A stretch of 49,792 bases of DNA. Origin: Bacteroidales bacterium. Lineage in GTDB: Bacteria; Bacteroidota; Bacteroidia; Bacteroidales; WCHB1-69. The position numbers and the translations under genes are program-made. The stretch's first letter is position 1. Every line of letters starts with the position of its first letter. This document shows, piece by piece, positions 1,059 to 48,206 of this stretch. The stretch spans positions 1 through 49,792 of the forward strand of contig JAFPVR010000122.1 of NCBI GenBank assembly GCA_017395245.1, in the 5' to 3' direction. The notes below the pieces were generated by a model. It was given only the letters and a program-made list of their open reading frames with translations, did no database searches and was not told where the DNA came from.

Positions 1059-1092
1059 TAAACTTGAAACTTGAAACTTGAAACCTGAAACC
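1059..1092. repeat. 7-bp tandem array (CTTGAAA type) at the purH stop
   Basis: About five heptads of the AACTTGA/AACCTGA type, read on the plus strand. On the minus strand the array begins directly after the purH stop codon (1093-1095). Confidence 0.85.
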
Positions 1093-2628
1093 TCAGTGTC
1101 TGAAATGCCGAACGCCCGTGAACACCATCGCGATGCCGAGCTCGTTGCAGGCCTTGATGGAGTCTTCGTCGCGGACACTGCCGCCGGGTTGGATGATGGC
1201 CGTCACACCGTATGCCGCCGCCATTTTCACCACGTCGTCGAAGGGGAAGAAGGCATCGCTGGCGAGACACAGATTGGCCGTAAGTCCCTTCTCCTTAGCC
1301 TCTTCCAAGGCGATGTGAGCCGCACCGACACGGTTCATCTGGCCCGCACCGACACCGGCAATGCATCCACCTGCCGCCACCGTGATGGCGTTGGAGCGCA
1401 CATGCTTGCAAATCGTCATCGCCAACTTGAGGTTCTCCATCTCCTCAGCCGTAGGCGCCTTCTCCGTCACCACGTTCAGTTCGTAGTCCTCAAAACGCTT
1501 TCTGTCAATGGATTGGCAAAGCATACCGCCCGCCACGCTGACATACATCTTTTCGTCGGCATTCGCCTTGTCCGTGCTGAAGGTCATCAGCCGGATGTTC
1601 TTCTTAGTGGAGAGGTGGTCGAAAGCCTCCTGCGTGAACGAAGGCGCGAGGATGATTTCGAGGAAGACAGGCTTCATCGCCTCGGCGGTCGGCAGGTCGA
1701 TTTCGCGGTTCGAGGCCACGATGCCGCCGAAAATGGAGACACTGTCGGCCTCGTAGGCGCGAGTCCAGGCCTCCAAGGCGTTCTCGCCGATACCCACACC
1801 GCAGGGGTTCTTGTGCTTCACGGCCACCATCGTCGGGCGATCGAACTCGCGCAGAATCTGCAAGGCCGCATCGGCATCTTGTATATTATTGTAGGACAAC
1901 TCTTTGCCATGCAGCTGTTCCGCCCATGCCATCGAGTAACCCTGTTTCTTGCCGGCATAGAAAGCAGCTTCCTGATGCGGATTCTCGCCGTAGCGCAACG
2001 ACTGCTTCTTGGTGAACGTAAGCGTCAGGTTCTCAGGCTCTTTCTCGCCAACCTTCTCCGTCAGATAGGTGGAAATATAGGTGTCGTAGGCGGCGGTATG
2101 GCGGAAGACCTTGGCGGCCAAACGGCGGCGAGTTTCCAATGTGGTATCGCCGTGCGCCTTCAATTCTTCGAGAACGGTCGGGTAGTCAGCATTGTCAACC
2201 ACCACGGTGACGAAGGCATGGTTCTTGGCCGCGCTACGCAACATCGAGGGACCACCGATGTCGATATTCTCGATGGCATCCTCAAACGTAGTTCCCTCTT
2301 TCTCAATAGTTTGCTTGAACGGATAGAGGTTCACCACCACCATGTCGATGGGGGCGATGCCGTTGGTCTCCATCTCCTTGACATGTTCGGGATTCGTACG
2401 GACGGAAAGCAGTCCGCCATGTACTTTCGGGTGCAGCGTCTTCACGCGACCGTCCATAATTTCCGGAAAGCCCGTCACATCGCTGATGCCAATGGTGGGA
2501 ACACCCGCGGCCTCCAACGCCTTGCGCGTGCCGCCGGTGGAGATAATCTCGTAACCCAATTTCGTAAGTTCCTGAGCGAAAGGCACTACACCCTCCTTGT
2601 TGCTCACACTGATAATCGCTCTTTTCAT
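1093..2628 (-). CDS. purH: Bifunctional AICAR formyltransferase / IMP cyclohydrolase
   Basis: Catalyses the last two steps of de novo purine synthesis: formyl transfer from 10-formyl-tetrahydrofolate to AICAR, then ring closure to IMP. About 511 residues, the full normal length. The N-terminal methylglyoxal-synthase-like cyclohydrolase domain spans about 1-150 (MKRAIISVSNKEG, then STGGT, GRVKTLHPK and NLYPF). The transformylase domain follows, with RYGENPHQ and KHKNPCGVG. The start is the ATG at 2626-2628. An in-frame ATG five codons upstream (2641-2643) is less likely because it lies only about 10 bp from the promoter box at 2652-2659. The gene is single and divergent from the secreted-protein gene at 2871. 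Confidence 0.97.
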   Translation of the reverse strand: MKRAIISVSNKEGVVPFAQELTKLGYEIISTGGTRKALEAAGVPTIGISDVTGFPEIMDGRVKTLHPKVHGGLLSVRTNPEHVKEMETNGIAPIDMVVVNLYPFKQTIEKEGTTFEDAIENIDIGGPSMLRSAAKNHAFVTVVVDNADYPTVLEELKAHGDTTLETRRRLAAKVFRHTAAYDTYISTYLTEKVGEKEPENLTLTFTKKQSLRYGENPHQEAAFYAGKKQGYSMAWAEQLHGKELSYNNIQDADAALQILREFDRPTMVAVKHKNPCGVGIGENALEAWTRAYEADSVSIFGGIVASNREIDLPTAEAMKPVFLEIILAPSFTQEAFDHLSTKKNIRLMTFSTDKANADEKMYVSVAGGMLCQSIDRKRFEDYELNVVTEKAPTAEEMENLKLAMTICKHVRSNAITVAAGGCIAGVGAGQMNRVGAAHIALEEAKEKGLTANLCLASDAFFPFDDVVKMAAAYGVTAIIQPGGSVRDEDSIKACNELGIAMVFTGVRHFRH

Positions 2629-2651
2629 TTTTCGGAATTTCAATTAAGCCG

Positions 2652-2659
2652 CAAAGGTA
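2652..2659 (-). promoter_or_regulatory. -7 box for purH
   Basis: On the minus strand the sequence reads TACCTTTG, matching the Bacteroidetes -7 consensus TAnnTTTG. It lies about 24 bp upstream of the purH ATG and is divergent from the box at 2691-2698. Confidence 0.7.
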
Positions 2660-2690
2660 CAAAAAATACGGGAGCGAAACACTATTTTCG

Positions 2691-2698
2691 TATTTTTG
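2691..2698 (+). promoter_or_regulatory. -7 box for the 2871/3338 gene pair
   Basis: TATTTTTG matches TAnnTTTG. Transcription would start near 2705, so the 7-bp array that follows would be transcribed as most of a leader of roughly 165 nt. Confidence 0.65.
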
Positions 2699-2706
2699 CC
2701 GTTGAA

Positions 2707-2847
2707 TTTGAGACTTGAGACTTGAGACTTGAGACTTGAGACTTGAGACTTGAGACTTGAGACTTGAGACTTGAGACTTGAGACTTGAGACTTGAGACTT
2801 GAAACTTGAAACCTGAAACTTGAAACCTGAAACTTGAAACTTTAAAC
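2707..2847. repeat. Long 7-bp tandem array (GAGACTT/GAAACTT)
   Basis: About 19 heptads. A uniform GAGACTT block comes first, then degenerate GAAACTT/GAAACCT units. The array lies between the promoter box at 2691 and the ATG at 2871, so it should form most of the 5' untranslated leader. Confidence 0.95.
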
Positions 2848-2870
2848 TATAATGACAAATAGTAACAGAT

Positions 2871-3341
2871 ATGAACAGTAAACTACTATTGGGAATGTTA
2901 GCGGCGTTGCTGGCATTCCAGACGGCGGCGGCGCAGACGAGAGTCACCCTGACATTCCAAGACGCCTCCTCGCAGGAAATCGAGGTCAGCTCGGCTGGGA
3001 AAATCTACTTCGACAACAATTACATGTACATCGACGACGGGACGGCGGTCCCCTACTCTTTCGCGGTGGCCAACATCCGCAAGATGACCTTCGACGAGGT
3101 GTTAGGGATGCGCGAAATCGTTTCCGAGAACTTCAAGGTCTACCCGAACCCCGCACGTAACGAGCTGTATGTCAACGGAGACGAGTTCGGACCATACCCT
3201 TACGTACTCTACTCCATGGACGGTCGCTTGCTGTTGCAAGGCGAGGTGCAAAACGGCGATGCCATCCAGATTGGCGACATTCCCACAGGCTTATATATCT
3301 TGAAAATCAACAATACATCACTTAAAATCAACAAGTTATGA
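2871..3341 (+). CDS. Small secreted protein with T9SS type A sorting domain
   Basis: 156 residues. It has a signal peptide (MNSKLLLGMLAALLAFQTAAAQ) and a short module of about 60 residues with paired beta-strand motifs ending in KIYFDNN and IRKMTFDE. The C-terminal T9SS domain starts at FKVYPNPARNEL (near residue 86) and runs through YSMDGRLLL and IPTGLYILKI. It should be exported by Sec and then carried across the outer membrane by T9SS. The molecular function is unknown. Its stop overlaps the start of the next gene by 4 bp (ATGA), so the two are very likely co-translated. The N-terminal module resembles the one in the neighbouring 728-residue protein. Confidence 0.85.
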   Translation: MNSKLLLGMLAALLAFQTAAAQTRVTLTFQDASSQEIEVSSAGKIYFDNNYMYIDDGTAVPYSFAVANIRKMTFDEVLGMREIVSENFKVYPNPARNELYVNGDEFGPYPYVLYSMDGRLLLQGEVQNGDAIQIGDIPTGLYILKINNTSLKINKL

Positions 3342-5524
3342 GAAAGCAAATCCTTTTAGCCCTCGTATGCGTGATGAGTGTGTGTATGTTGAGCGCACAG
3401 GAGTATTACCTGCACACACATCGGGGCGGCAACGTCACCTTCGAGAAGAAAATCAGCCAAATAGACAGCATCAACTTCCTGAACAGCAGTGCGGTGTTCA
3501 CCTACAACACCGGCCACACCTCGCTGCCGTTCTCCAATATCGACAGCGTGACGTTCAGCACAGACAGCCTGATCCCGACTTACGACATCTACATTATATA
3601 TAATGGTAGCACCGTCACCGTCACCAACCCGTTAGCGACCTCGGGCGTGACCATCACCACGAATGGGGCGGGTGTGACAGTGGTCTCCACGGCGGGCCTT
3701 TCCGACATCACCTACCACCTCTCCGGCAGCACGCTCGACGGTTTCTTCAACATCAGCAGCGACAAGCGATTCAACCTCTCGTTGGAGAATGTTTCCATTA
3801 CGAACACCACGGGCGCGGCCATCAACTCCGTGATTGACAAGAAGATGACGGTCAGTATCAACGGCACCAACTATCTGAAAGACTGCGCCAACGGCCAGCA
3901 GAAGGCCGCACTCTACAGCAAGGGACAGGTCTTCTTCTACGGCGGCGGTACGCTCACCGTCGAGGGGCTTACCAAACACGCCATCTCCTCCGGCGACTAC
4001 ATCGAGATTTACGGCGGAAACATTGTCGTAACATCAGCCGTATCAGACGGTTTGCATGGCGACTATATCCGCATGCACAACGGCAGCGTGACCGTTTCGG
4101 GCACCACCGGCGACGGGCTGGACGGCGATACGGGCTTCATCGAAATCAACGGCGGCACGCTGAACGTCACCGTGGCCACCGCCGACACCAAAGCTGTGAA
4201 GTGCGACAGCACGCTGACCATCAACGGCGGCAACATCACCCTCACGGCTTCGGGCGCACAGACCAAGGGGCTGAAGAGCGACCAGACCATCGTCCTCAAC
4301 GGCGGCGACATCAGCATTACCGCATCGGGTGCGACGGTATTGGAAACCGTTGACGGAGTGCAGGATCCGGCCTACTGTTCGGCCATCGCCACCGACGGCA
4401 ACGTGATTATCACCGGCGGCACGCTCACCATCACACTGCCGACGAGCAACAACGGCGGCAAGGGCATCTCCGCCGACGGCAACGTCACCATTTCCGGCGG
4501 CGAAATCCACATCACCACGGCGGGTGCGGGCGCGGCCTACACCGTCTCGGGCAGCACCAAGGATTCCTACTCGTGCTGTTGCATCAAGTCCGACGCGCAC
4601 CTGCTGATTACGGGCGGCGACATCACCTGCAGCAGCGGCGGCGCAGGCGGCAAAGGCATTCGCGCCGACAGCTCAATCGTCATCGGGGCGGTGGATGCGG
4701 CCGACTCATTGCTCACGCTCAACGTTTCCACTTCCGGCGCACGCTTCACCGTTTCTAACGGCGGCGGCTGGCCTCCGGGACCGGGCGGCGAAAGCGGCGA
4801 CTACTGCAACCCGAAAGCCATCCGCAGCGGCGGCAACCTCACCGTCAACAGCGGCCTCATCACGGTCAACTGTACCCAAAGCGGCGAAGGCGGCGAAGGC
4901 ATGGAAAGCAAGGCGACCCTCAACCTCAACGGCGGGCAGCTCACCATCACGTCCACTGGCGACGACGCCATCAATTCGGCCAACTACCTCTATATCAATG
5001 GCGGCACGACCTATGCTGCCTCCACCAACAACGATGCCATCGACTGCAACGGTCCGATGTACATCACCGGCGGCTTCACCATTGCGGCAGCCAGCCACAC
5101 CCCGGAGGAGGCCTTTGACTGCGACAACTACACCTTCGGCATCACGGGCGGCACCATTGTCGGCACGGCCCCGAGCGGCATGTACTCGAGCCCCACGGCC
5201 AGTGCCTGCACGCAGCACTCGCTCAAATATACGCACGCGGGCAACAACGCCGTCCAGCTCATCCGCAACAGCGACAACGAGGTCATCCTGACCTTCAAAG
5301 TCCCCTCCATCAGCGGCGGCGGCGGTCCCGGCGGCGGTGGATCTTCGGCCACCATGACCTTCAGCAGCCCGGAATTTGTCCAAGGCACCTACACGCTGAA
5401 ATACGGCGGCACCATCACCGGCGGCACCAACTGGCACAACTACTACACGGGAGCCACCTACAGCGGCGGCAACAGCAAAACCGTCACCGTGGGGTCTTCG
5501 TTCTCGGTGGTGACGGCGAATTGA
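3338..5524 (+). CDS. Secreted Cthe_2159-like carbohydrate-binding beta-helix protein
   Basis: 728 residues with a signal peptide (MRKQILLALVCVMSVCMLSAQ). Residues about 22-80 form a module with two IDSINF/IDSVTF motifs. The rest is a right-handed beta-helix type repeat, seen as recurring units such as LTINGGNITL, LNGGDISI, ITGGTLTI and ISGGEIHI, typical of the Cthe_2159/DUF4353 family. The founding member of that family binds acidic polysaccharide; that this protein does so is inference. There is a Gly-rich loop near residue 660. No T9SS sorting domain is visible, unlike its partner gene, with which it overlaps by 4 bp. The stop codon is the first element of the 7-bp array that follows. Confidence 0.85.
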   Translation: MRKQILLALVCVMSVCMLSAQEYYLHTHRGGNVTFEKKISQIDSINFLNSSAVFTYNTGHTSLPFSNIDSVTFSTDSLIPTYDIYIIYNGSTVTVTNPLATSGVTITTNGAGVTVVSTAGLSDITYHLSGSTLDGFFNISSDKRFNLSLENVSITNTTGAAINSVIDKKMTVSINGTNYLKDCANGQQKAALYSKGQVFFYGGGTLTVEGLTKHAISSGDYIEIYGGNIVVTSAVSDGLHGDYIRMHNGSVTVSGTTGDGLDGDTGFIEINGGTLNVTVATADTKAVKCDSTLTINGGNITLTASGAQTKGLKSDQTIVLNGGDISITASGATVLETVDGVQDPAYCSAIATDGNVIITGGTLTITLPTSNNGGKGISADGNVTISGGEIHITTAGAGAAYTVSGSTKDSYSCCCIKSDAHLLITGGDITCSSGGAGGKGIRADSSIVIGAVDAADSLLTLNVSTSGARFTVSNGGGWPPGPGGESGDYCNPKAIRSGGNLTVNSGLITVNCTQSGEGGEGMESKATLNLNGGQLTITSTGDDAINSANYLYINGGTTYAASTNNDAIDCNGPMYITGGFTIAAASHTPEEAFDCDNYTFGITGGTIVGTAPSGMYSSPTASACTQHSLKYTHAGNNAVQLIRNSDNEVILTFKVPSISGGGGPGGGGSSATMTFSSPEFVQGTYTLKYGGTITGGTNWHNYYTGATYSGGNSKTVTVGSSFSVVTAN

Positions 5525-5576
5525 GACTTAAGACGTAAGACTTGAGACGTAAGACGTAAGACTTGAGACTTAAGAA
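5521..5576. repeat. 7-bp tandem array (ACTTGAG/ACGTAAG) at a stop codon
   Basis: About seven heptads mixing GACTTAA, GACGTAA and GACTTGA. The TGA stop of the Cthe_2159-like gene (5522-5524) is itself part of the first unit. Confidence 0.88.
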
Positions 5577-5605
5577 GAGGATAGGCTGTAGAGAGGCACA
5601 GCAAC

Positions 5606-10603: not shown

Positions 10604-10678
10604 TCTTCTGTCGTTTATTATTAAGACGCAGAAAATCCAAATGGTTGCACTTTGCCGAAAAAAAATCTGTACCTACCC

Positions 10679-10710
10679 ATAGTGTAGCCATACTGTAGCC
10701 ATAGTGTGCC
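10679..10710. repeat. 11-bp tandem array (ATAGTGTAGCC)
   Basis: Three units of 10-11 bp directly precede the palindrome at 10712-10737. Confidence 0.75.
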
Positions 10711-10711
10711 T

Positions 10712-10737
10712 GTAGAGACGCACGGCCTTGCGTCTCC
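10712..10737. repeat. 28-bp-type palindrome, diverged copy
   Basis: GTAGAGACGC and GCGTCTCC arms surround ACGGCCTT. It is a diverged member of the GTAGAGACG palindrome family and sits between two 11-bp arrays. Confidence 0.8.
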
Positions 10738-10749
10738 GAATAGAGTTGG

Positions 10750-10793
10750 ACCGGAGTTACACCGGAGTTACACCGGAGTTACACCGGAGTTGA
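10750..10793. repeat. 11-bp tandem array (ACCGGAGTTAC)
   Basis: Four units, three identical and the last ending in TGA. The array lies between two palindromes of the GTAGAGACG family. With the preceding entries it fills the 231-bp gap between the adhesin gene and recO. Confidence 0.93.
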
Positions 10794-15502: not shown

Positions 15503-15513
15503 CATTTTTTTAG

Positions 15514-15570
15514 GCAACAGGCAATAGGCAATAGACAGCGGGGAATAGGCAATAGTCAACAGGGAACGGA
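15514..15570. repeat. 7-bp tandem array (GCAATAG)
   Basis: About eight degenerate heptads (GCAACAG, GCAATAG, GGAATAG, TCAACAG, GGAACGG). They run up to the palindrome at 15575 and lie just upstream of the rbfA promoter. Confidence 0.85.
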
Positions 15571-15574
15571 GAAC

Positions 15575-15602
15575 GTAGAGACGTTGCGCGCAACGTCTCT
15601 AC
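15575..15602. repeat. Perfect 28-bp palindrome containing the MscS stop
   Basis: Two 14-bp arms, GTAGAGACGTTGCG and its exact complement, with no spacer. The TAG stop codon of the MscS gene (15599-15601) is formed by the right end of the palindrome. Confidence 0.95.
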
Positions 15603-19193: not shown

Positions 19194-19311
19194 CTACCCC
19201 AGGGCTCACTGCGTTCATCCTGGGCTGACATAATTTTTTCAATTATCCCAGGGCTACGCTTCGCTTCACCCTGGGCTGACATACGTCGGGCTTTCAGCCC
19301 TATTTGGAATA
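19194..19311. repeat. CCCAGGGCT two-hairpin element, locus B
   Basis: A first copy at 19197-19230 carries the first hairpin and GGGCTGACATA. A complete copy at 19246-19308 ends in the hairpin GGGCTTTCAGCCC. It directly borders the 7-bp array at 19312. Confidence 0.85.
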
Positions 19312-19339
19312 AGTCTTAAGTCCTAAGTCTCAAGTCTCA
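19312..19339. repeat. 7-bp tandem array (GACTTGA type) at a stop codon
   Basis: On the minus strand the TGA stop (19337-19339) of the lipoprotein gene is the beginning of GACTTGA / GACTTAG / GACTTAA heptads. Confidence 0.85.
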
Positions 19340-20056
19340 CGGTTTGATGTTGATGCGGAAGGTGTCGGGGAAGGTGTAGATGTGGTCGGGTTCGGGCACG
19401 GAGATGGTTTTGGCGACCACGGAGGGGATTTCGTCCTCGTCCTCGCTGAAGGTGAAGACGGTGTAGGTGCCGGGGGAGAGTTTCTGGAAGGCGAAGGTGC
19501 CGTTCATGCCGGCGCGCACGTCGTCGCAGGGGAAATCCTCGCCCTCCCGCTGGATGTACATGCGCTGTCCGTAGGCCCAGCCCTGCGAAATCACGTTCCC
19601 ATTCTTGTCGATGTAATACGCCCAGACGCGCCCTTTCACCATGGAGGTGCCGTAAGCCTTGCCCTCGTGGATGTAGATGTCGGGGGCAACGGTTGTCTTA
19701 CCGTACTGAACCTCAACGGTTTGCGGCACCGCCACGCGTTCGCCGCTCGCCAACGTCGAGTAGGCATAGACGGTGTAAGTGCCCGGCCGCAAATACTTGA
19801 ACTGGTAGAAACCGGTGTGGTCGGTCTCCTCGTCGTCACCGTAGAACTGTTGCGTGCCGTAGACCAAGAAGACATCCTCTTTGGCGGCCAACACAGTGTC
19901 CGTCTGTAAGTTATAGTTGTCGTCGGGATGCAGCACTTTGTAGACGGTGCCTTCGATGGAACCGGTGCCGCCGCTGCCCTCGCCGGTATTGCAGGAGACG
20001 GCTAACATTGCCAAAACCAGCAGAACGAGCGGGGTGATAAGTTTATTGATTCTCAT
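19337..20056 (-). CDS. Lipoprotein with two carboxypeptidase regulatory-like domains
   Basis: 239 residues. The lipobox LAVSC gives an acylated Cys at residue 22, followed by a flexible GEGSGGTGS stretch. The first transthyretin-like fold starts at SIEGTVYKV and ends with LRPGTYTVYAYS. The second starts at SMVKGRVWAYY and ends with LSPGTYTVFTFSED. Both carry the family motif LxPGTYTV. It is probably anchored in the outer membrane; the function is unknown. The stop codon is part of a 7-bp array. A TATTTTCG sequence on the minus strand at 20082-20089 resembles a weak -7 box. Confidence 0.78.
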   Translation of the reverse strand: MRINKLITPLVLLVLAMLAVSCNTGEGSGGTGSIEGTVYKVLHPDDNYNLQTDTVLAAKEDVFLVYGTQQFYGDDEETDHTGFYQFKYLRPGTYTVYAYSTLASGERVAVPQTVEVQYGKTTVAPDIYIHEGKAYGTSMVKGRVWAYYIDKNGNVISQGWAYGQRMYIQREGEDFPCDDVRAGMNGTFAFQKLSPGTYTVFTFSEDEDEIPSVVAKTISVPEPDHIYTFPDTFRINIKP

Positions 20057-20320: not shown

Positions 20321-21088
20321 ATGCGGACATCCGGGGTCGGTCGCTCACTGCTTCGCAAGGCGCCGCTGACACTGCTGTTGGCGGTCGCTTGTTGTTTGTC
20401 GTGGGCCCAGAACGTGGGCGAATACTACCACGACGTGACCGACAAGGAGTGGGATTTCCAGATTTTCGCGAACACCGCAGGTTTCGGCGGCGGCTTCCAG
20501 CACGGACGCACCCCCGACCTCTACAACAAGCACTTCTGGGAGGTGCAGTTCATGGTCAACAAGCACCCTAAATCCATCCGGTCCATCAACGCACTGTACG
20601 ACAACGTGCGCCCCATCCGCTACGGGCAGCTCTATTCGCTGTTCTTCCTGCAAGCCGGCTACGGCTACCAGCGCACCCTTCACCTCAAGCCCTACTGGGG
20701 CGGCGTGCAAGTGAGCTACGTCTTGTCTGCCGGACCCGTGCTTGGCATCGGCATCCCCAACTATGTGGAGGTACTTAACTATAACACAGGGTTTTCCGAG
20801 ATTGTGCGCTACGATCCCGAGAAGCACAACCTCAACAACATCCTCGGCGGCGCAAGGCTGATCAACGGCATCTCGCAGACCATCTTCCGGCCTGGCTTCT
20901 ACGCCAAAACCGGTCTCGTGTTCGACTTCGCCAAGAGCGACTACAAACTCCGCGCCCTTGAAGTCGGCATCCAGTACCAGATGATCTTCCCGTTCGTGCA
21001 GCAGATGGCCTTCAACCCCGCCAAGAAATTCTACCTCACCGGGTACCTGTCGTTTAATTTCGGGAAAAAGATAGGAAGGCAACGATGA
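20321..21088 (+). CDS. Predicted outer-membrane beta-barrel protein
   Basis: 255 residues with a signal sequence (LTLLLAVACCLSWAQ). It has many alternating strands (WDFQIFANTAGFGGGFQHG, GQLYSLFFLQAGYGYQ, KPYWGGVQVSYVLSAGPVLG) and ends in SFNFGKKIGRQR. A conserved-looking domain of this kind occurs beside small lipoproteins in related genomes, but I cannot name its family. The start at 20321 may be a few codons too early. It follows the 46-residue lipoprotein. Confidence 0.65.
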   Translation: MRTSGVGRSLLRKAPLTLLLAVACCLSWAQNVGEYYHDVTDKEWDFQIFANTAGFGGGFQHGRTPDLYNKHFWEVQFMVNKHPKSIRSINALYDNVRPIRYGQLYSLFFLQAGYGYQRTLHLKPYWGGVQVSYVLSAGPVLGIGIPNYVEVLNYNTGFSEIVRYDPEKHNLNNILGGARLINGISQTIFRPGFYAKTGLVFDFAKSDYKLRALEVGIQYQMIFPFVQQMAFNPAKKFYLTGYLSFNFGKKIGRQR

Positions 21089-21097: not shown

Positions 21098-21129
21098 TGA
21101 CTTTGACCTTTGACTTTGACCTTTGACTA
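21098..21129. repeat. 7/6-bp tandem array (CTTTGAC)
   Basis: Alternating CTTTGAC and TTTGAC units start about 12 bp after the stop of the outer-membrane gene and end just before the S41 protease ATG. A similar array in opposite orientation lies at 40276-40311. Confidence 0.85.
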
Positions 21130-22784: not shown

Positions 22785-24326
22785 ATGAGCCGCGCGGAGT
22801 TCCACCACAAATTCTACCTGTTGGGCACCGTCACGTTGGCGGTCGCCATCCCGTTGTCGCACTTCCTCATGGGATTGGCACCTTTCCTGTTGCTGCTCAA
22901 CTGGTTAGCCGAATGGAACTGGGAAGAGAAACGGACACGGCTGCGCGAAAACTGGCAAGGCCTCCTGTTCGCCGCTTTCTACCTTGTCTACGCCATCGGC
23001 CTCGTCCACACCACCGGTTGGGGTGCGGCGGGCAAAGAGATGCTCAGCAAACTGCCGTTCCTCCTCTCTCCTATCGTGGTTATCACCTCCAAACCGTTCG
23101 AAAACAAGGAATTACGGTGGATTTTCGGAGCGTTCGTGCTGGCCACCCTGTTCGGATGCTTCTGGAATTTCGGCTATGCACAGACCCATACGCTCGGCGA
23201 CTTCCGGGAAATGTCGTACTTCATCGACCACATCCGCTTTGGCCTCTGCGTGGTGATGTCGGTGGTCTTCTGCATACATTACTTCAATATTGCTTCGGAC
23301 ACTGACCCTCGGCAGAAATTTCGATACATATACTTGGTTATCAGTATCTTGCTTCTCGCATACCTCATCTACAGCCAGACACTTTCGGGCATCCTGATTC
23401 TCATGGTGATTGCGGTCTGTTACATCATCTATCTCATTGTGAACAAAGCAGATAGACGAACGAAATGGATCTTAGGCAGCGTAACGGCCTTGTTGCTGAT
23501 CGCCGTAACCGGATATATCGCGTACATCACCTACGACTACTTCCACGTGAAAGACCCCGCCCCCGACCGCTCCGCTCTGACCGCCTCGGGCAACCCCTAC
23601 ACGTTCGAGGAGGAACCGATGGTGGAAAACGGCCACTATATCGGCAACTACGTGTGCGAAAAGGAGTTGCAGACCGCTTGGGCTATGCGTTCCGACTCGG
23701 TTTACGACGGGCTGACCTCTGCCACCTTGGTGCGCTATCTCAACTCGCTCGGGCTTCGTAAGGATTCCGCCGCCGTGATGAGCCTCAGCGACGAAGACAT
23801 CCGCAATATCGAAAACCACAACGCCAACGCATGGTACGTGCGCGGGGGCAACGCGCGGCGCGCCTTGTACGAGACTCTCTTCGGGATAACGCTCTACCAA
23901 AAATACGGGATGATAAACGAATCGTCGCTGTTGGAGCGGGTGGAGCTGTGGCGGGCGTCGTGGCAGGTCATCCGCGAGCACTGGTTGCTCGGGGTCGGCA
24001 TCGGAAACCAAAGGACGGCACTGGACCAACAGTTGGAGGCGCAGCAGTCGCCCATCGCGGGCAAGCGGCCGGGACGCGGCAGCCACAACCAATTCCTCAC
24101 CTACTGGCTCGCCGCCGGCATTATCCCCGTGCTCTATTTATGTTTCCTGCTGGTTTATCCTTTCGCCGCAATGAAAAAACGGATTACCTTCGTCTATTTC
24201 GCCTTCATCACCACGATGTTCCTCTCCATGCTGGTGGAAAACACCCTCGACGTCCAAACCGGCCGTATGCTGTGGACGACGTTCTTGCCGATATTGCTGT
24301 TTCGACCGATAACCAATAACCAATAA
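22785..24326 (+). CDS. O-antigen ligase family (Wzy_C) membrane protein
   Basis: 513 residues with about ten membrane helices in two groups. A large outer loop lies near 265-420. It holds the Wzy_C/WaaL-type region, ending in LLGVGIGNQRTALDQ and GRGSHNQFLTYWLAAGIIPV. His in SHNQFL and the preceding Arg are typical of this family, which joins O-antigen or other glycans to lipid acceptors or polymerises them. The last six residues (PITNNQ) and the stop are encoded by a heptamer repeat array. It sits in an operon with the S41 protease. Confidence 0.8.
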   Translation: MSRAEFHHKFYLLGTVTLAVAIPLSHFLMGLAPFLLLLNWLAEWNWEEKRTRLRENWQGLLFAAFYLVYAIGLVHTTGWGAAGKEMLSKLPFLLSPIVVITSKPFENKELRWIFGAFVLATLFGCFWNFGYAQTHTLGDFREMSYFIDHIRFGLCVVMSVVFCIHYFNIASDTDPRQKFRYIYLVISILLLAYLIYSQTLSGILILMVIAVCYIIYLIVNKADRRTKWILGSVTALLLIAVTGYIAYITYDYFHVKDPAPDRSALTASGNPYTFEEEPMVENGHYIGNYVCEKELQTAWAMRSDSVYDGLTSATLVRYLNSLGLRKDSAAVMSLSDEDIRNIENHNANAWYVRGGNARRALYETLFGITLYQKYGMINESSLLERVELWRASWQVIREHWLLGVGIGNQRTALDQQLEAQQSPIAGKRPGRGSHNQFLTYWLAAGIIPVLYLCFLLVYPFAAMKKRITFVYFAFITTMFLSMLVENTLDVQTGRMLWTTFLPILLFRPITNNQ

Positions 24327-24357
24327 CCGATAACCGATAACCGATAACCAATAACCA
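24303..24357. repeat. 7-bp tandem array (AACCGAT) entering a CDS end
   Basis: About eight AACCGAT/AACCAAT heptads. The first three encode the end of the O-antigen ligase, and the TAA stop lies inside the array. Confidence 0.9.
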
Positions 24358-24515: not shown

Positions 24516-24548
24516 CTAACTACTAACTACTAACTACTAACTGCTAAC
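24516..24548. repeat. 7-bp tandem array (CTAACTA)
   Basis: Four CTAACTA units with one CTAACTG variant, about 100 bp before the DUF6249 gene. No clear promoter box was seen between it and the gene. Confidence 0.88.
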
Positions 24549-24648
24549 TTTTTTTCTTCCCCATGTCACCTTTTGCGATGCTGGTTCGTTTAACAGATGA
24601 ATCGATTCGGTAATAAACGAAAATTTGTAACCTTAAAAATTAATAGTC

Positions 24649-32183: not shown

Positions 32184-32273
32184 ACCCAAGTACTACCCAA
32201 GTACTTGGCAAGTCAAAGTGCTTGCTTGGACTTGCCAAGTGCTTGCGATATACTTGCCAAGTACTTGCCAATA
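32184..32273. repeat. 11-bp tandem array (ACTTGCCAAGT type)
   Basis: About eight degenerate 11-bp units such as ACCCAAGTACT, GGACTTGCCAA and GTACTTGCCAA. Each unit is itself close to palindromic. Confidence 0.8.
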
Positions 32274-40235: not shown

Positions 40236-40275
40236 GCTTAAATATATTTGTGGTTTACGTATTTTACATTAAAAA

Positions 40276-40311
40276 GTCACAGTCAAAGTCAAAGGTCAAA
40301 GTCAAAGGTCA
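40276..40311. repeat. 7/6-bp tandem array (GTCAAAG) at a stop codon
   Basis: Alternating GTCAAAG and GTCAAAGG-like units, complementary to the CTTTGAC array at 21098. On the minus strand the TGA stop of the type B sorted gene (40309-40311) begins the repeat. Confidence 0.85.
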
Positions 40312-43065
40312 CAACACCGTTATAGATCCCTTGTATATGAACTGTTTGCCGTCGAGGTTGCGCACGCGGACAATCCATACATAGACCTGCCCGTTGATGA
40401 CGTGGCTGCCGGCCGCCACATCCTCGGGACGGTTGCCCTGCTCGCCGCACCATTGGAAATTCATGTCGTTGTTCCAATAGACGAGCGAACCCCATCGGTT
40501 GTAAATCTCGATGCTGAACTCGGTGAGGAAGCGGTGCACGTATTCCGGCAGATAAAGGCAGTCGTTCAGTCCGTCAGACCTGGACGGTGTTATGGCGTTG
40601 GGGAGGATGATGGTGAAGTCGCAGGCGGGCACGGTATAATGATCGAAGGCCTGGCAGTCGCCTTGGGTTACCGTCACGGTATAAAGTCCTGGTTGTGTGA
40701 CAGATATAAACGACGTGGTGTCACCCGTATTCCAAATATACTCGTCGTAATCGGAAACGGCGTTCAGCACAATCTCACCATGCTCGCAAAAGTCCTCGCC
40801 CGAAGTCACGATATCTACCTCGGGTTCCAAAATCTCCAAATGCATGGTCACGAGACTGTCGCAGCCATGTGAATCCGTCAGTGTTTGCTGATAATCACCC
40901 GATTCCACGTAGGTATGCCCGTTCCAGGTGTACTGGTTGCAGGCGGTGTGCGAAAACTCGCCAAACACACTGTCACGAACCGTGAGCACGAGCGTGAGGA
41001 CACTGTCGCAGCCGTATCCGACCGGGGTCAGGTGCACAGAATCGGTCAAGATGTGCGGCACGGCAGTACTGTCGGCCGGGAAATGGAACAGGCCGCCGAA
41101 TCCGGTGTAGTCGTGGCCAGGACAGACGGTGTCATAGACGGTCTCCCGATTCACAATGTCGCGGATGGTGAGGTCGAGAATCAGGAAGCTGTCGCAACCC
41201 ATCTCCACGGTCTGCAGGAGCAGCGTATCGTAAAACGTTCCGACCTCTTCCGTACTCGCAGGAGGAACGGTGAAGCCGTATCCAGTATAACCCACGCCCG
41301 GACAAATCGTATCGTAAACCGTCTCATACAAAGAGGGATGAATGGTAATTTCAACAGAGTCGTACATCGCCTCCAACTTGCAGTTACGCGAATCGTGCGC
41401 CACCACCGTGTACCAACCGCTATGCTGGGGCACGACTGCGGCACGCTGGTACGGCTCCTGGGTGATGTCAAAGTTGGGACCGAGAATACGAGTGATAGCC
41501 GCATCCACACTGTCGAAACCAAAGATAATCGTATCCCCCTCACAATAATCACTGAACGTTATCTCAGGGGAGAATTTGATAGAACTCTCTGACGTATAGC
41601 TGCTGAAGTAGCTGATGGAGCAGTCGTCGTAGCTGCCGTTGATGTCAAACACGCCCATGTGGAATTTCCCGATGGAGTTGGTGACCCGGAATGTGACCAT
41701 ATTGTTGTAAGTGGGCGAGTAATTGGAGGAGACATTCTTACGGCAATACCGGAACGGGCTGTATGGGATTGCATGCCAATCGCTCGCCGTTATGATGTTT
41801 GCGTTGCCGTTAATTTGAAACCCCGTGGTACAGGAGGAATCGCACAACAGGGTGAGATAGAGCTGTTTGGTATGGTCGTTGGCCGACTGCAAGGGTCGAT
41901 AACCAACAGCCGTGGAACCGGTGCAGGCGATGTGAGGAAGTTGCGTACCGCCGAACTCCTTCCCCGCGCCGGTAATCTGGAAGACGAAGACAGGAGCCTC
42001 CGTTATCACACCGGTATTTTCATCCAAATGCGATGCATAAACGAAAATAGGGTTCTGGTCGGCAAAGTGGAACTTCTGCTTGTCGCCGCGGTTCATCGTA
42101 TAATTGGTGATCGTCGGGTTGTTGGGGTTGCCGCTGTAGATGGCGACATCGGTGTTGTTCTCCAAAGCGAACACGAAAGCGTAGTCAAGGTAGTAGTTTC
42201 CACCGCCGCTCGTAGCGGGCGCGTTGTTGCTGACGTTAGAAGGCGAGGGCACCACAATGTACTGTCCTCCGGCCATGCTTTCAGGCACGAGCTGGTCGGC
42301 CACAAGGTCGGCACTACCGTTGCCGTTATCGGTGGTTTCCGTACAGTACGGGGTCACCGAGTCGTCGGAAACATCCACCGCAACGGGCTTGTCAGAGGTG
42401 ATGATGGTACCGGCGAGGTGGTTGGCGGCAGCCTGCGAACTGGCCGCGAGGGTATAGACCTGGCCTCGCTGCAGGGTTACTGTGAACGGCGTGTTGGCTG
42501 CATGCCCGACGCAAGCCTTCGACGGTGTGATGGTAACGGTGGTGTTGTTCTCCGTTCCGATAATCTCGACAGTGTTTTTCGCCTGCGAATAGGCACCGGA
42601 ACCGTTACCGCTGCCGTTGGCGAACTGGAACTGCGTAGTGACAAAAAACTGCGTGCCGAGACCGTTGCCGCCCTTGAGTGCGTAAATTTCACTATTATTC
42701 TGACACACAGCCACGTATGCGTTAATCTTGGCAGTGGAATGGATGTAGAGACCGTTGTTGACGGTCGCATTGTGGTTACATTCGAAGCCGCTGAGACCCG
42801 AGGAGTTGGAAACCAACGTCAGGGTGCTGGAGGAGTTGGCAGGCACATTCAGCGTGTTGCCGACCTGCGTCCCAGAGTAGGCCTTCGTCACCGTGACGGT
42901 GGCCGGCTCGCCAAAGGTGGAAACCACTAACGTAATGGGCGTATGCTGGTGCTCGGACGTGAGCTTCGGCACCGCAAACCAGAAGGCAGTATCGACCTGC
43001 GCTGAACAGAATGACAACGCCGTGACGAACAATAAAGCGGTGAGTAAAAATTTTAATTTACGCAT
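40309..43065 (-). CDS. T9SS type B-sorted IgGFc-binding-like protein
   Basis: 918 residues from the ATG at 43063-43065. A signal peptide (MRKLKFLLTALLFVTALSFCSAQ) is followed by an IgGFc-binding-like N-terminal domain (about 25-370: TAFWFAVPKL, IYIHS-type strands, KPVAVDVSDDS, GGQYIVVPSP). Ig-like or PKD-like beta repeats with ETVYDTICPG motifs follow. A C-terminal CHU_C domain (ILPNAITPSRSDGLNDCLYLPEY...IYNRWGSLVYWNND) is the type B sorting signal. It should be exposed on the cell surface or secreted by T9SS. The host-binding role is only inferred from the name of the domain. It is divergent from glyA. Confidence 0.87.
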   Translation of the reverse strand: MRKLKFLLTALLFVTALSFCSAQVDTAFWFAVPKLTSEHQHTPITLVVSTFGEPATVTVTKAYSGTQVGNTLNVPANSSSTLTLVSNSSGLSGFECNHNATVNNGLYIHSTAKINAYVAVCQNNSEIYALKGGNGLGTQFFVTTQFQFANGSGNGSGAYSQAKNTVEIIGTENNTTVTITPSKACVGHAANTPFTVTLQRGQVYTLAASSQAAANHLAGTIITSDKPVAVDVSDDSVTPYCTETTDNGNGSADLVADQLVPESMAGGQYIVVPSPSNVSNNAPATSGGGNYYLDYAFVFALENNTDVAIYSGNPNNPTITNYTMNRGDKQKFHFADQNPIFVYASHLDENTGVITEAPVFVFQITGAGKEFGGTQLPHIACTGSTAVGYRPLQSANDHTKQLYLTLLCDSSCTTGFQINGNANIITASDWHAIPYSPFRYCRKNVSSNYSPTYNNMVTFRVTNSIGKFHMGVFDINGSYDDCSISYFSSYTSESSIKFSPEITFSDYCEGDTIIFGFDSVDAAITRILGPNFDITQEPYQRAAVVPQHSGWYTVVAHDSRNCKLEAMYDSVEITIHPSLYETVYDTICPGVGYTGYGFTVPPASTEEVGTFYDTLLLQTVEMGCDSFLILDLTIRDIVNRETVYDTVCPGHDYTGFGGLFHFPADSTAVPHILTDSVHLTPVGYGCDSVLTLVLTVRDSVFGEFSHTACNQYTWNGHTYVESGDYQQTLTDSHGCDSLVTMHLEILEPEVDIVTSGEDFCEHGEIVLNAVSDYDEYIWNTGDTTSFISVTQPGLYTVTVTQGDCQAFDHYTVPACDFTIILPNAITPSRSDGLNDCLYLPEYVHRFLTEFSIEIYNRWGSLVYWNNDMNFQWCGEQGNRPEDVAAGSHVINGQVYVWIVRVRNLDGKQFIYKGSITVL

Positions 43066-43081
43066 ATTATATTTTAAGCCG

Positions 43082-43089
43082 CAAAAATA
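43082..43089 (-). promoter_or_regulatory. -7 box for the type B-sorted gene
   Basis: The minus strand reads TATTTTTG, 16 bp before the ATG, divergent from the glyA box. Confidence 0.68.
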
Positions 43090-43114
43090 AGATTTTTTCA
43101 TAACGGAAAATTTG

Positions 43115-43122
43115 TATTTTTG
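43115..43122 (+). promoter_or_regulatory. -7 box for glyA
   Basis: TATTTTTG, giving a leader of about 45 nt before the ATG at 43176. No riboswitch was seen. Confidence 0.7.
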
Positions 43123-43175
43123 CACTCTCTATTTTGGTTACATAAATTTTTATCAATCAAATAATTACATTCAAA

Positions 43176-44456: not shown

Positions 44457-44476
44457 TCCCCTACCCCTCATAAACG

Positions 44477-44513: not shown

Positions 44514-44537
44514 CATGTGCTATGTTCTGTTAAATCG

Positions 44538-45305: not shown

Positions 45306-45321
45306 ATTCAATAATTTCTCA

Positions 45322-45879
45322 TTATCCGTTTTCGTCGCCCAATTCGCGCCGCAGCCACTTCCTTGCACGCAGAAAGACGACCCTCATTGAATCCTCTTTT
45401 TTGCCGAGTACCTCGCCGACCTTCGCAAACGTGTAGCCTTCAAGGGCATGCAGGTTGAAAACCGTGCGATATGTCTCAGGCATCCGCTGGAGCGCGTCAA
45501 TCACAATCCGCGCGTCCATGGCGGTCGTGATTGTTTCGTCAACGCCCAATAAACTTTCATCATCCAACTCATTCGGCAACTGTTCGTTGCGAAACTTGCG
45601 GATGGAACGGTAATGGCTGATAGCCGTATTCACCATCACCGAGTGAATCCAGGTGCTAAAGGAACTATCCCCTTTGAATGTCTTCAGACTCTTGAACACC
45701 TGCATAAAGCCTTCCATCAGCATATCCTCCGCTTCCTCGTCTGAGTTCGCATATCTTCGGCACAGCACGAACATTTGCGATGCATAGCGGTCGTACAACT
45801 GCCGCTGGCTCAATCGGTCGTTCTTCAAACAGCCGTTGACAAGGGTTTGGATATCTGATTCTCTGTCCGTCACATTCAC
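45322..45879 (-). CDS. ECF sigma factor
   Basis: 185 residues with GTG start (45877-45879). Region 2: LYDRYASQMFVLCRRYANSDEEAEDMLMEGFMQVFKSL then FSTWIHSVMVNTAISHYRS. Region 4: LQRMPETYRTVFNLHALEGYTFAKVGEVLGKKEDSMRVVFLRARKWLRREL. It belongs to the Bacteroidetes ECF type and probably partners the membrane protein encoded next to it. Which genes it controls cannot be told from the window. Confidence 0.92.
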   Translation of the reverse strand: MNVTDRESDIQTLVNGCLKNDRLSQRQLYDRYASQMFVLCRRYANSDEEAEDMLMEGFMQVFKSLKTFKGDSSFSTWIHSVMVNTAISHYRSIRKFRNEQLPNELDDESLLGVDETITTAMDARIVIDALQRMPETYRTVFNLHALEGYTFAKVGEVLGKKEDSMRVVFLRARKWLRRELGDENG

Positions 45880-45923
45880 TCTGTCGCACGAAATTCCAAT
45901 TTCGTTACACCCGAATGAGAATT

Positions 45924-46907
45924 TTATTGCACAGACTTCACAACTGCCTCAACCTCACGCAGATAGTCTCTTTTTTCTTCTTGCGGAGCATAGACAAAAC
46001 CGTCGATTGTTATACAAGAAACGCTGTCTGGTGCAACCTGGGTGAAGCTATAGAAGGGGCCGCCCATCTTGTCGCGAACCGTTTCCCACAATCCTCTCAA
46101 CTCCACACCGCTATGGTATCTCAGTTTCAGATTTTGCCTCAACGGATAGCCTTCGATATTCGCCACCAACGGATAGGCACCGGCCACTGCACCCTGGATG
46201 TAGGCTTTGGTGATGCGGTCGCGCTCGGCCACGATGTTCTCTGTGGTCAGTTCATATTTCGGTGACGTATAAATCATGACAAAGCGGTCGTTTTTCGGGG
46301 TGCGGAAGCAGAGCCACAGGAAATCATCCTCCTCGCGACCCACGAAATAGCCTTCCGGCACCGTCATCGAGATACCGAACTTTTCCTTGATTTTCTTCTC
46401 TATCACGGGGTTGTTGAGTTTGCGGTGGGCATTCTGCAGCCGCGCGATATCGTTGTCGTACATTGCCTGCACAATCTCATCCTGATGCGCGAGAAAGAGC
46501 GCGAGACAGGAGTCCTGATTGTTGCCGCGGATTTTGACGTGAATCTGCGGTTTGGTGACAGGATCCCGCTGAATCTCGAATGTATTTCCCGCATAATCAG
46601 GGTTATAGTCAAACTGTACGATGTTCCGGTGACGCATGAACGATGCTTTATAGTCCGCATTGGAGCACTGGATGACATCGAACATCGGCTCAATTTGGTT
46701 GATGGCGGGTTGCGGCTGCTGAATCACCGCGTAGATTTCCTTCATCGCGGCCTTGGACCAGTAGCCCGTGTCGATGGCGAGAATCATCTCACCCGCCTTG
46801 CCAGTGGAGAAATTATCGACTTTGATGCCCGAAGTGCCTGATTTCTGATGGCAGGAAACCAGCGAAAGGAGCATCAACAACACTGCGAAGTAACTGATTT
46901 TCTTCAT
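45924..46907 (-). CDS. DUF4837 lipoprotein
   Basis: 327 residues. Lipobox LVSC places an acylated Cys at residue 19. The body fits the DUF4837 family: GKAGEMILAIDTGYWSKAAMKEIYAVIQQPQPAINQIEPMF, then FGISMTVPEGYFVGREEDDFLWLC and GGPFYSFTQVAPDSVSCITIDGFVYAPQEEKRDYLREVEAVV. The function is unknown. It lies in the same direction as the sigma gene but 44 bp apart. Confidence 0.87.
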   Translation of the reverse strand: MKKISYFAVLLMLLSLVSCHQKSGTSGIKVDNFSTGKAGEMILAIDTGYWSKAAMKEIYAVIQQPQPAINQIEPMFDVIQCSNADYKASFMRHRNIVQFDYNPDYAGNTFEIQRDPVTKPQIHVKIRGNNQDSCLALFLAHQDEIVQAMYDNDIARLQNAHRKLNNPVIEKKIKEKFGISMTVPEGYFVGREEDDFLWLCFRTPKNDRFVMIYTSPKYELTTENIVAERDRITKAYIQGAVAGAYPLVANIEGYPLRQNLKLRYHSGVELRGLWETVRDKMGGPFYSFTQVAPDSVSCITIDGFVYAPQEEKRDYLREVEAVVKSVQ

Positions 46908-46953
46908 ATTTCTGAAATTTTACTTTTCTATTGTTTTATATTCGAATTATTGT

Positions 46954-46961
46954 TATCTTTG
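46954..46961 (+). promoter_or_regulatory. Promoter of dprA
   Basis: TATCTTTG with TTG at 46931-46933, 20 bp upstream. The mRNA leader would be about 50 nt. Confidence 0.72.
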
Positions 46962-47018
46962 CCGTGCGAAAACCAACCGCAAAAATAAAATAAAATTCAT
47001 AAACCTTGGACAAAAAAA

Positions 47019-48122
47019 ATGTACACGGAACTTTTTTATCGCATTGCCCTGAACAAGACGGAAGGGCTTGGGAAGTCATCGCTGAAACGGATTCTAACGG
47101 TCTCCGGATCCGCTAAAAATGTCTACGAATTTCCTGAATCCTGGCGAAGAAGTCTACGCCACTCGAAACGTTTCGACGTGGACATCCGGCTTACAGACAA
47201 ACTCAAAGCACTGGCCGAAAGAGAACTCCAGTTGATGGACCATTACAACGTCAAGTTGTGCCACTATCTCGACCCGACATACCCGCAGCGGCTGAAACGA
47301 TGCAACGACGCGCCCGTATCGTTTTACTACAAGGGCAGCGGCGACTTCAACCCGGCACGGACGCTGGCCGTAGTGGGCACTCGCAATGCCACCTCCTACG
47401 GCATCAAAAGCCTGACCAAGATTCTCAACGATTTGAAAGACAAGAACATCGCAACGATCAGCGGCCTGGCTTACGGCATCGACACCGTGGCACACGAGGA
47501 GTCGTTGAACCTCGGAATGCCCACGACAGCGGTGCTTGGCAACGGACTACACACGGTCTACCCTGCGACCAACAAACCATTGGCAGACAGAATCTTGGAG
47601 AACGGCGGCACACTCGTCAGCGAGTTCGACTTCGACACGGGTCCCGACCGGATGAACTTCCCCGCGCGCAACCGCATCATCGCGGGCATGGCCGACGCTG
47701 TGTTGGTGGCCGAAAGCGCAGTCAAGGGCGGGAGCATCATCACGGCACACATCGCCAACTCCTACAACCGCGACATCTTCGCTATCCCAAGCACCATCTT
47801 CGACGACATGCACGCGGGCTGCCACGACCTCATCCGCCGCAACATCGCCGCCATCGCCACCTCCGGGCAAGACCTCCTCGAAATGATGAACTGGGACACT
47901 GACTCTGCTCCGCAAGCCGTTCAGACACAGCTATTTCCAGAGCTTACCGAAGACGAGGAACGGGTCTATCGCTTCGTGGAAGGCGGCAAAAAGACCATCG
48001 ACGAGATTTCCGAGCACTGCACCGACTTCTCTCCTTCCAAACTGGCCGGCATCCTGCTCACGATGGAGCTCAAGGGGGTGCTGGTCGCGCTGCCAGGAAA
48101 AAGCTACGGAACGGGGATGTGA
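47019..48122 (+). CDS. dprA: DNA-processing protein DprA
   Basis: 367 residues. DprA guards incoming single-stranded DNA and loads RecA in natural transformation. Segments: LAVVGTRNATSYGIKSL, ISGLAYGIDTVAHEESL, LGNGLHTVYPATNKPLA, and FPARNRIIAGMADAVLVAESAVKGGSIITAHIANSYNRDIFAIP form the Rossmann-like domain (about 100-290). The last 60 residues form a winged helix (ERVYRFVEGGKKTIDEISEHC...LLTMELKG). The N-terminal SAM-like part is present. Together with the YifB/ComM gene nearby it hints at competence capability, though no DNA uptake genes are in the window. Confidence 0.95.
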   Translation: MYTELFYRIALNKTEGLGKSSLKRILTVSGSAKNVYEFPESWRRSLRHSKRFDVDIRLTDKLKALAERELQLMDHYNVKLCHYLDPTYPQRLKRCNDAPVSFYYKGSGDFNPARTLAVVGTRNATSYGIKSLTKILNDLKDKNIATISGLAYGIDTVAHEESLNLGMPTTAVLGNGLHTVYPATNKPLADRILENGGTLVSEFDFDTGPDRMNFPARNRIIAGMADAVLVAESAVKGGSIITAHIANSYNRDIFAIPSTIFDDMHAGCHDLIRRNIAAIATSGQDLLEMMNWDTDSAPQAVQTQLFPELTEDEERVYRFVEGGKKTIDEISEHCTDFSPSKLAGILLTMELKGVLVALPGKSYGTGM

Positions 48123-48140
48123 TAAAACCTTTCGGTTTTA
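48123..48140 (+). terminator. Hairpin just after dprA
   Basis: TAAAACC-TTTC-GGTTTTA starts right after the stop codon. It is a weak A/T stem and lacks a long T-run, so termination is tentative. Confidence 0.5.
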
Positions 48141-48206
48141 GGTTTCAGGTTTCAAGTGATTTCGAACTTTTGAGTACCTGAAACTTGAAACCTGAAACTT
48201 GAAACC
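48134..48206. repeat. Inverted pair of 7-bp arrays between convergent genes
   Basis: The left 24 bp (48134-48157, GGTTTTAGGTTTCAGG...) is inverse to the right 24 bp (48183-48206) with three mismatches. A single 73-bp hairpin can form. Same heptamer type as at 1059 and 2707. Confidence 0.8.

Follow-up and report, generated by a model that had tools for sequence, protein, structure and literature searches.

Why should tandem repeats of quite different sequence share a unit length of seven bases, and why should so many of them begin where a gene ends? The question is raised by a stretch of 49,792 nucleotides (hereafter the window), which forms one of the 129 contigs (C112) of a 3.78-Mb Bacteroidales genome and carries intergenic arrays of seven-base units (heptamer arrays). 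Judged by PurH, its nearest named relatives (95–96% identity) are uncultured Bacteroidales, several of which were recorded from rumen or gut. Cyanobacteria, too, have short tandem heptamers in intergenic DNA, the short tandemly repeated repetitive (STRR) sequences. An initial annotation of the window had named ten heptamer arrays and had noted that five of them adjoin or include a stop codon. All ten were recovered by Tandem Repeats Finder (minimum score 30) at nearly the same places, and the five stop cases hold against the ends of the open reading frames at 1093, 5524, 19337, 24326 and 40309. Here, we follow these arrays through a larger part of the genome and through the same gene ends in related genomes. 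The arrays are heptanucleotide simple sequence repeats, and their clearest rule, unmentioned in the initial annotation, is that the G-richer strand mostly leads away from the nearest gene.

Prevalence of period seven

The main sample comprised 61 sequences of the window's genome, the window included (975,652 bases, 26% of the genome), in which our own simple hexamer script called 711 genes, with 83% of the bases coding. The stops of these calls are exact for real genes and the starts are approximate, and promoters are likewise script-based. Twenty-five of the 61 sequences are the window itself or contigs picked for their BLAST matches to one array, the other 36 amounting to 502,949 bases; one sequence (L089) contains no G or C and is uninformative. 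The assembly is fragmented, and five of its contigs (C108, C119, C97, C96 and C121) start or end at or near heptamer arrays, so that the arrays themselves probably break the assembly.

Repeat clusters in the sample, taken at a score of at least 40, were dominated by a single period: 187 of the 372 were intergenic with period 7, compared to 4 each for periods 6 and 8 and 11 each for periods 11 and 14, also counted between genes. Only 14 period-7 clusters were coding, although coding sequence makes up most of the bases. Among the 36 sequences not chosen by BLAST, 72 intergenic period-7 clusters were found, versus at most 5 for any other period. The prevalence of seven over other periods, which the initial annotation had proposed to check, is thus borne out in this quarter of the genome, as is its remark that the units differ while the period is shared, since the intergenic arrays comprise 49 canonical units. 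Seven bases as the commonest period and a mostly non-coding location are both features of heptanucleotide simple sequence repeats. One array alone had 43 BLAST matches within the genome, itself included, and a search with the array at 2700–2860 matched 32 of the 60 genomes searched, counting the window's own, almost all from a single genus. The idea that one element has spread across the phylum was rejected, given that (AACCAAT) occurred in 5 and (ACTTRAG) in 2 of 296 genomes, with the window's genome counted both times.

Arrays abut stop codons

Distances were scored for the 184 arrays (period 7, 14 or 21) that have a called gene on both sides, and compared with 500 draws in which each array was placed at random in its own gap. 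An array lay within 3 bp at 73 of 185 stop sides, where 13.8 were expected (standard deviation 2.7, maximum of all draws 24), and at 13 of 183 start sides, where 10.1 were expected, i.e. with no clear excess. Abutment to stops is therefore far more frequent than random placement allows, and neither of the outcomes that the initial annotation had named as contrary to its proposal, random stop distances or an unenriched period 7, was found. The same tendency appeared in other genomes of the genus, with 48 of 104 within 3 bp compared to 13.8 expected at 145 orthologue loci (these are orthologous sites and not independent), and 9 of 37 compared to 4.1 in 20 stretches of same-genus genomes. Eleven loci of named relatives (L009–L019) gave 6 of 19 versus 2.7, with six arrays pointing away and one toward the gene at stops and four away and none toward at starts 8–100 bp distant, and were not counted as a further set because 10 of the 11 coincide with purH orthologue loci.

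To compare the same gene ends across species, we fetched orthologue loci of pckA, ahcY, pheS, gyrB and purH, 30 per gene out of 37–39 matching genomes each, and left out one pckA and one purH locus in which the contig ended before any stop. Of 148 orthologue ends, 142 matched exactly in C-terminus and stop position, and in the remaining 6 the length is unchanged, so the position of the stop is ancestral rather than a product of the array. The reading register of the arrays adds no independent support: among the 78 of 83 stop-adjacent arrays kept for this test, the native stop was in register with the array stops in 33 of 61 (10 expected). The count drops to 4 of 17 (2.7 expected) for arrays starting at the end of the stop or beyond it, so that the excess comes mostly from arrays overlapping it. 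The identity of the stop codon did not differ significantly, non-TAA stops being 19 of 44 with an abutting array and 30 of 104 without (p = 0.13).

Strand polarity and facing arrays

Polarity was counted for the 181 arrays of period 7 or 14 with a called gene on both sides. Within 7 bp of stops, the G-richer strand led away from the gene in 70 arrays and toward it in 7; for arrays 8–100 bp from starts, the counts were 39 and 5. Nine of 195 arrays, including the one at 24305–24357 in the window, share more than 14 bp with a called gene and are counted here with the next one; reassigning them gave 75 to 9 at stops and 38 to 2 at starts. Polarity was weaker within 7 bp of starts (13 to 7) and 8–100 bp from stops (10 to 7). 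Read in gene sense, arrays within 7 bp of a stop had more G than C in 71 cases and more C than G in 8 (p = 1e-13), and the bias extends to the distinct oriented units at stops (24 versus 3), while no G skew was seen in the 40 nucleotides after array-less stops (144 to 185). The rule recurred at the orthologue loci of the genus (39 away and 9 toward at stops, 23 and 1 at starts) and in the same-genus stretches (8 and 2, 5 and 0); in 20 stretches from other families of the order only three polar arrays were found, all pointing away. Polarity was 14 to 1 where a promoter box lay between array and start and 34 to 9 in the absence of a visible box. Arrays directly downstream of a promoter box, in 5' untranslated regions (5' UTRs), gave 5 to 4, so that a UTR role is not supported.

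Arrays were present in 148 gaps, as a single array in 116 and as two or more in 32. Eighteen of these 32 hold arrays whose outgoing strands face each other (><), and 3 more show the arrangement ><<. Facing neighbors belonged to the same unit family, inverted, in 7 of 19 cases versus 2.4 expected, and in other genomes in 2 of 10 versus 0.8.

Turnover of units among species

An array starting within 7 bp of the stop was found in 13 of 29 orthologues of pckA, 1 of 30 of ahcY, 9 of 30 each of pheS and gyrB, and 12 of 29 of purH. Grouped by single linkage, the units at these stops formed 7 groups for pckA, 1 for ahcY, 7 for pheS, 4 for gyrB and 3 for purH; greedy grouping splits alike purH units into 5 groups and leaves pckA, pheS and gyrB unchanged. 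Turnover is visible even between close relatives, since at protein identities of at least 93% there were still 5 groups among 11 arrays for pckA, 2 among 3 for pheS, 4 among 9 for gyrB and 3 among 8 for purH (1 group for ahcY). Directly after the stop of pckA, for example, genomes with 96–99% identical protein carry arrays of the TTATTGG, TGACGTA, TTAAACC, TTGAGAC or CAACAGG type. The gap after gyrB, pckA or purH also varies by species, being in some a pure array and in others a few bases. The place is therefore conserved more than the sequence, since unit groups and gaps differ among species at the same gene ends. This points to gene boundaries, rather than the repeated word, as what determines the sites of arrays. 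A comparison of the same loci in related strains had been proposed with the initial annotation; made among species of one genus, it shows stop positions kept while units differ. Our searches of open-licence papers listed no description of such an exchange of units at conserved gene ends.

Stop triplets in the repeat units

The initial annotation had pointed out that a heptamer holding a stop triplet places stops in all reading frames, and had limited this to some of the arrays. Stops do occur in the units, and the limit was too narrow: among the 170 arrays with a consensus of exactly seven letters, the only ones kept for this test, 169 carry TAA, TAG or TGA on at least one strand, compared to 134 ± 5 for letter-shuffled units, and a stop triplet is found in 42 of 43 distinct units (32 ± 3 expected) and in 54% of random intergenic heptamers. 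A link to stop codons resting on stops in all frames is not borne out. Units with more than 3 mismatches excluded, the triplets lying between one GACT and the next are TGA (162), TAA (129), TAG (13) and TGG (14), and the 14 cases of TGG equal the 14.9 predicted from independent A/G variation, so TGG is not depleted. Moreover, arrays whose stops lie only on the strand leading toward the gene keep the polarity (14 G-rich and 2 C-rich in gene sense). Selection for a stop in every unit was accordingly rejected as the main force, in view of the undepleted TGG and the antisense-only arrays.

Heptamer arrays of the window

The arrays of the window are as follows.

1060–1091, minus strand: heptamer array AAACTTG/AAACCTG (plus-strand letters), 1 bp past the purH stop (1093–1095, minus strand), G-richer strand leading away from purH
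2708–2842, plus strand: long heptamer array whose units change from TTGAGAC to TTGAAAC/CTGAAAC, between the start of the divergent purH and the gene that follows
5521–5575, plus strand: heptamer array GACTTAA/GACTTGA/GACGTAA, including the stop (5522–5524) of the gene at 3338–5524
15511–15567, plus strand: degenerate heptamer array AATAGGC/AACAGGC/AACAGGG
19310–19337, minus strand: heptamer array, in gene sense GACTTGA/GACTTAG/GACTTAA, touching the stop (19337–19339) of the minus-strand gene at 19337–20056
21098–21128, minus strand: array mixing seven- and six-base units, TTTGACC/TTTGAC (plus-strand letters), detected as period 13 (7 + 6)
24305–24357, minus strand: heptamer array ACCAATA/ACCGATA (plus-strand letters), covering the final 22 bp of the O-antigen-ligase-like gene at 22785–24326
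24516–24549, minus strand: heptamer array CTAACTA (plus-strand letters), upstream of the start of the following gene, G-richer strand leading away from that start
40273–40311, plus strand: array mixing seven- and six-base units, in gene sense TTTGACC/TTTGAC, period 13, overlapping the stop (40309–40311) of the minus-strand gene at 40309–43125
48130–48154, plus strand: heptamer array TTTCAGG/TTTCAAG, 7 bp past the stop of dprA (48122), first of two facing arms
48176–48206, minus strand: second arm, same family as 48130–48154 inverted, CTTGAAA/CCTGAAA (plus-strand letters), next to the stop of the minus-strand gene at 48216–49037

PurH was identified by the Pfam families AICARFT_IMPCHas and MGS. 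The long array at 2708–2842 lies downstream of a promoter-like box, recognized by pattern match only, and thus probably within a 5' UTR. The array at 21098–21128 begins 9 bp past the stop of the gene at 20321–21088 and ends about 9 bp ahead of the next called start (21138). Two arrays of the window are exceptions to the polarity rule, being C-rich in gene sense, namely the one at 24305–24357 and the one at 40273–40311, whose gene encodes a type IX secretion domain.

Relation to known heptamer repeats

Contrary to the initial annotation, which took a link between heptameric repeats and stop codons to be undescribed, such a link has been reported for the heptamers of Xanthomonas and Nostoc (Rehm et al. 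2015, PMC4692102). These are intergenic G-quadruplex heptamers, GGGAATC in Xanthomonas and GGGGA(C/T)T in Nostoc, which downstream of open reading frames lie on the coding strand and mostly less than 50 bp from the stop, overlap with the stop included, and upstream of open reading frames lie close by on the non-coding strand (PMC4692102). Convergent repeat pairs number 70 and 75 in Xanthomonas and are few in Nostoc, and length and sequence vary extensively between two Xanthomonas species; placement and polarity were studied there as a property of quadruplex sequences, and no function was found (PMC4692102). The arrays of our genome are like those described by Rehm et al. in their period, their intergenic location and their strand layout (coding strand after stops, non-coding strand upstream of starts), and convergent pairs are present as well, as >< in 18 and as ><< in 3 of the 32 multi-array gaps. 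They lack the quadruplex feature, as a run of GGG (or CCC) is found in only 2 of the 49 canonical units, and because most units have no such run the layout needs no quadruplexes. They also differ in variety: the study of Xanthomonas and Nostoc dealt with a single G-rich motif in each group, while here there are dozens of units and the unit at one gene end can differ fully between species.

A second relative is the direct repeat TAACTGA of Beggiatoaceae, Cyanobacteria and five Bacteroidetes, which places stops in all three forward frames (MacGregor 2015, PMC4679880). In some Bacteroidetes other heptamers are mixed in and the stop of the upstream gene is sometimes overlapped; in Beggiatoaceae the repeat is a single unit, in one orientation and mostly just upstream of start codons (PMC4679880). 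Judged by that description, the present arrays are unlike TAACTGA repeats in having many units and in lying chiefly at stops. TAACTGA itself (canonically AACTGAT) was not among the 51 canonical units of the arrays in our distance test, and siting directly upstream of starts was not seen, with 13 of 183 start sides within 3 bp compared to 10.1 expected. For long simple sequence repeats of 5–11 nucleotides, both PMC4679880 and PMC4692102 cite Mrazek et al. 2007; in most genomes heptanucleotides are the most frequent class of such repeats, and slippage over a 7-nucleotide polymerase contact has been proposed (Mrazek et al. via PMC4679880). The passages citing that work give no gene-boundary rule. 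New here are the many different units, which mostly lack G runs, and their exchange at conserved gene ends. Concerning arrays at stops in Bacteroidales, or R-loops with tandem repeats in bacteria, we found nothing pertinent in the open-licence literature.

How the arrays may arise

The reading that we favor, to which we give about an even chance as a whole, is that the arrays are fast-turning heptanucleotide repeats which selection confines to non-coding DNA, and which are perhaps biased by untranslated transcription leaving the gene. Copies would first be added in steps of seven bases when DNA synthesis slips, a process already suggested for other heptanucleotide repeats, and purifying selection would then remove arrays in genes and promoters, leaving them to survive only up to the last codon and the promoter; we regard these two steps as likely. 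In a third step, outgoing transcripts, whether from read-through past the stop or antisense from the promoter, would lack ribosomes and pair with their template, so that the G-richer non-template strand would be left single-stranded and prone to slippage, giving arrays that start at the stop and have an outward G-strand. Slippage and selection can explain the places where arrays are allowed, but do not on their own account for the start at the stop or the fixed strand; both would follow if arrays grow under ribosome-free outgoing transcription. This third step is the least supported part and we hold it to be doubtful, the more so because a distant Paludibacteraceae locus, described below, goes contrary. 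A benefit to the cell would not be required. The similar layout in other phyla, in Xanthomonas and Nostoc (PMC4692102), is counted in favor of the reading.

Several results weigh against it. We fixed five predictions before a further 160 kb of the window's genome, with 14 arrays, was scored as a fresh sample. Abutment to stops there was 5 of 17 versus 2.4 expected (maximum of 500 draws 6), about twofold where over threefold had been predicted, and of the arrays within 7 bp of stops 3 pointed away and 4 toward the gene, where more than 80% away had been predicted; two of these four exceptions were TTTGACC-type units, C-rich though they place a stop in gene sense. The prediction for starts held (3 away, none toward, 2 unpolar). 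The sole gap with two arrays had no facing pair (n = 1), and divergent gaps held no array. In 64 more distant named loci, the G-richer strand led away from the gene in 2 and toward it in 8 of the 12 arrays scored over all distances; a single 11.5-kb Paludibacteraceae locus (L035) holds 10 of the 13 arrays of these loci, which are intergenic, have period 7 or 14 and mostly show the opposite polarity, so that this family may not obey the rule. In other genomes, 7 of 61 arrays at stops carry a stop triplet on neither strand. The array that follows ahcY here, itself just below the threshold of the orthologue script, has a counterpart within 120 bp of the stop in only 2 of 30 orthologues. Finally, slippage alone leaves the same-family excess among facing arrays unexplained (7 of 19 versus 2.4). 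Our stretches were partly picked for array content, and the sole prospective test was small and mixed in outcome. We consider the polarity rule well supported in this genus and doubtful beyond the genus within the phylum.

A stronger claim, namely that a sequence-independent process writes heptamers outward from the stop codon or the promoter end, with the G-richer strand outgoing and the unit renewed in each species, is in our judgment unlikely. If it were true, the boundaries of translation and transcription would steer a mutational or repair process, and the heptamer arrays of this genus, of Xanthomonas and of Nostoc would be independent products of the same process. In this genome dozens of units, mostly without G runs, follow much the same layout, and they are exchanged from species to species at places that stay the same. 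The rule, with its period of 7, its gene boundary and its outgoing G-strand, is thereby detached from individual sequences, and the questions of why seven and why gene ends become testable in a cultured relative.

Alternative explanations

Rho, the transcription terminator, prefers C-rich RNA. Arrays that are C-rich and G-poor in sense RNA might thus load Rho, be purged after stops inside operons and be kept before promoters as insulators, in line with the finding that most arrays ahead of promoter boxes are C-rich in sense (14 to 1) and most of those after stops are G-rich (70 to 7). Against this, many C-rich sense arrays lie near starts where no promoter is recognized (34 to 9) and where they would end the operon, and divergent gaps hold facing pairs too (4 cases), which leaves Rho sites a quite unlikely cause.

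Selection on translation might instead maintain the arrays as fail-safe tapes that end it in all three frames past the stop codon. Nearly every unit has a stop on one strand (169 of 170), those arrays adjoining stops whose own stops lie on a single strand have them in gene sense in 43 cases and antisense in 16, and in the fresh sample a gene-sense stop was present in 5 of 6 heptamer arrays at stops, doing better there than G-skew. The undepleted TGG among TRR variants (14 versus 14.9 expected) speaks against such selection, as do the 16 of 83 stop-adjacent arrays with antisense stops only, the same polarity upstream of starts, where no stop codon needs backup, and the chance-like register of arrays beginning at or after the end of the native stop (4 of 17, with 2.7 expected). 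We judge this explanation decidedly unlikely.

Facing arrays could also be the arms of hairpin stems that end or protect transcripts, or of cruciforms. The window has such a case, one family inverted within 48130–48206, as do several other gaps, and same-family facing pairs exceed expectation (7 of 19 versus 2.4); yet 12 of the 19 facing pairs combine different families and 116 of the 148 array-bearing gaps have only one array, and a hairpin origin is improbable. The same outward G-strand at both gene ends, the facing pairs, the replacement of whole gaps between close species and the different units at one site would be expected if broken intergenic DNA were capped by an enzyme adding heptamers to the G-strand, as at telomeres, and then rejoined. 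Pure-array gaps whose flanking genes lie a few bases apart in relatives resemble net insertion rather than replacement, and we hold such healing to be very improbable. The trivial reading, in which arrays lie anywhere and open reading frames merely end at the first in-frame array stop, would account for a register excess that comes mostly from arrays overlapping the stop (33 of 61 with 10 expected, compared to 4 of 17 with 2.7 elsewhere) and may hold for individual genes such as 22785–24326, but is hardly credible in general, as it is contradicted for pckA, pheS, gyrB and purH, housekeeping C-termini and stops do not differ between relatives that have arrays and those that lack them (exact in 142 of 148), 26 of 78 arrays begin 1–7 bp past the stop, and only 2 arrays overlap it by their third unit where units 1 to 3 are expected about equally.

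Other repeats alongside the arrays

The window also holds tandem repeats of other periods, with a 35-bp unit in 9 copies, 97% alike, at the contig start (1–315) and arrays of 11 bp (and 22 bp) at 10677–10791 and 32184–32271. Another intergenic repeat, which occurs in the same gaps as heptamer arrays, lies at 1014–1057 in the window and downstream of gyrB in three further loci (L250, L251 and L253), and has a hairpin core GCCCC-(n)-GGGGC or similar (TTCCTTGAGCAG..). A palindrome resembling repetitive extragenic palindromic (REP) elements, GTAGAGACG...CGTCTCTAC, adjoins arrays at 15571–15600 in the window, after pckA in L166, and in gaps of L127 and L103. Within single arrays an ordered composition can be seen, in that toward the array end far from the stop (in L097, L098, L101, L106 and L121) TTRAGAC often turns into units like TTGAAAC or CCTGAAAC.

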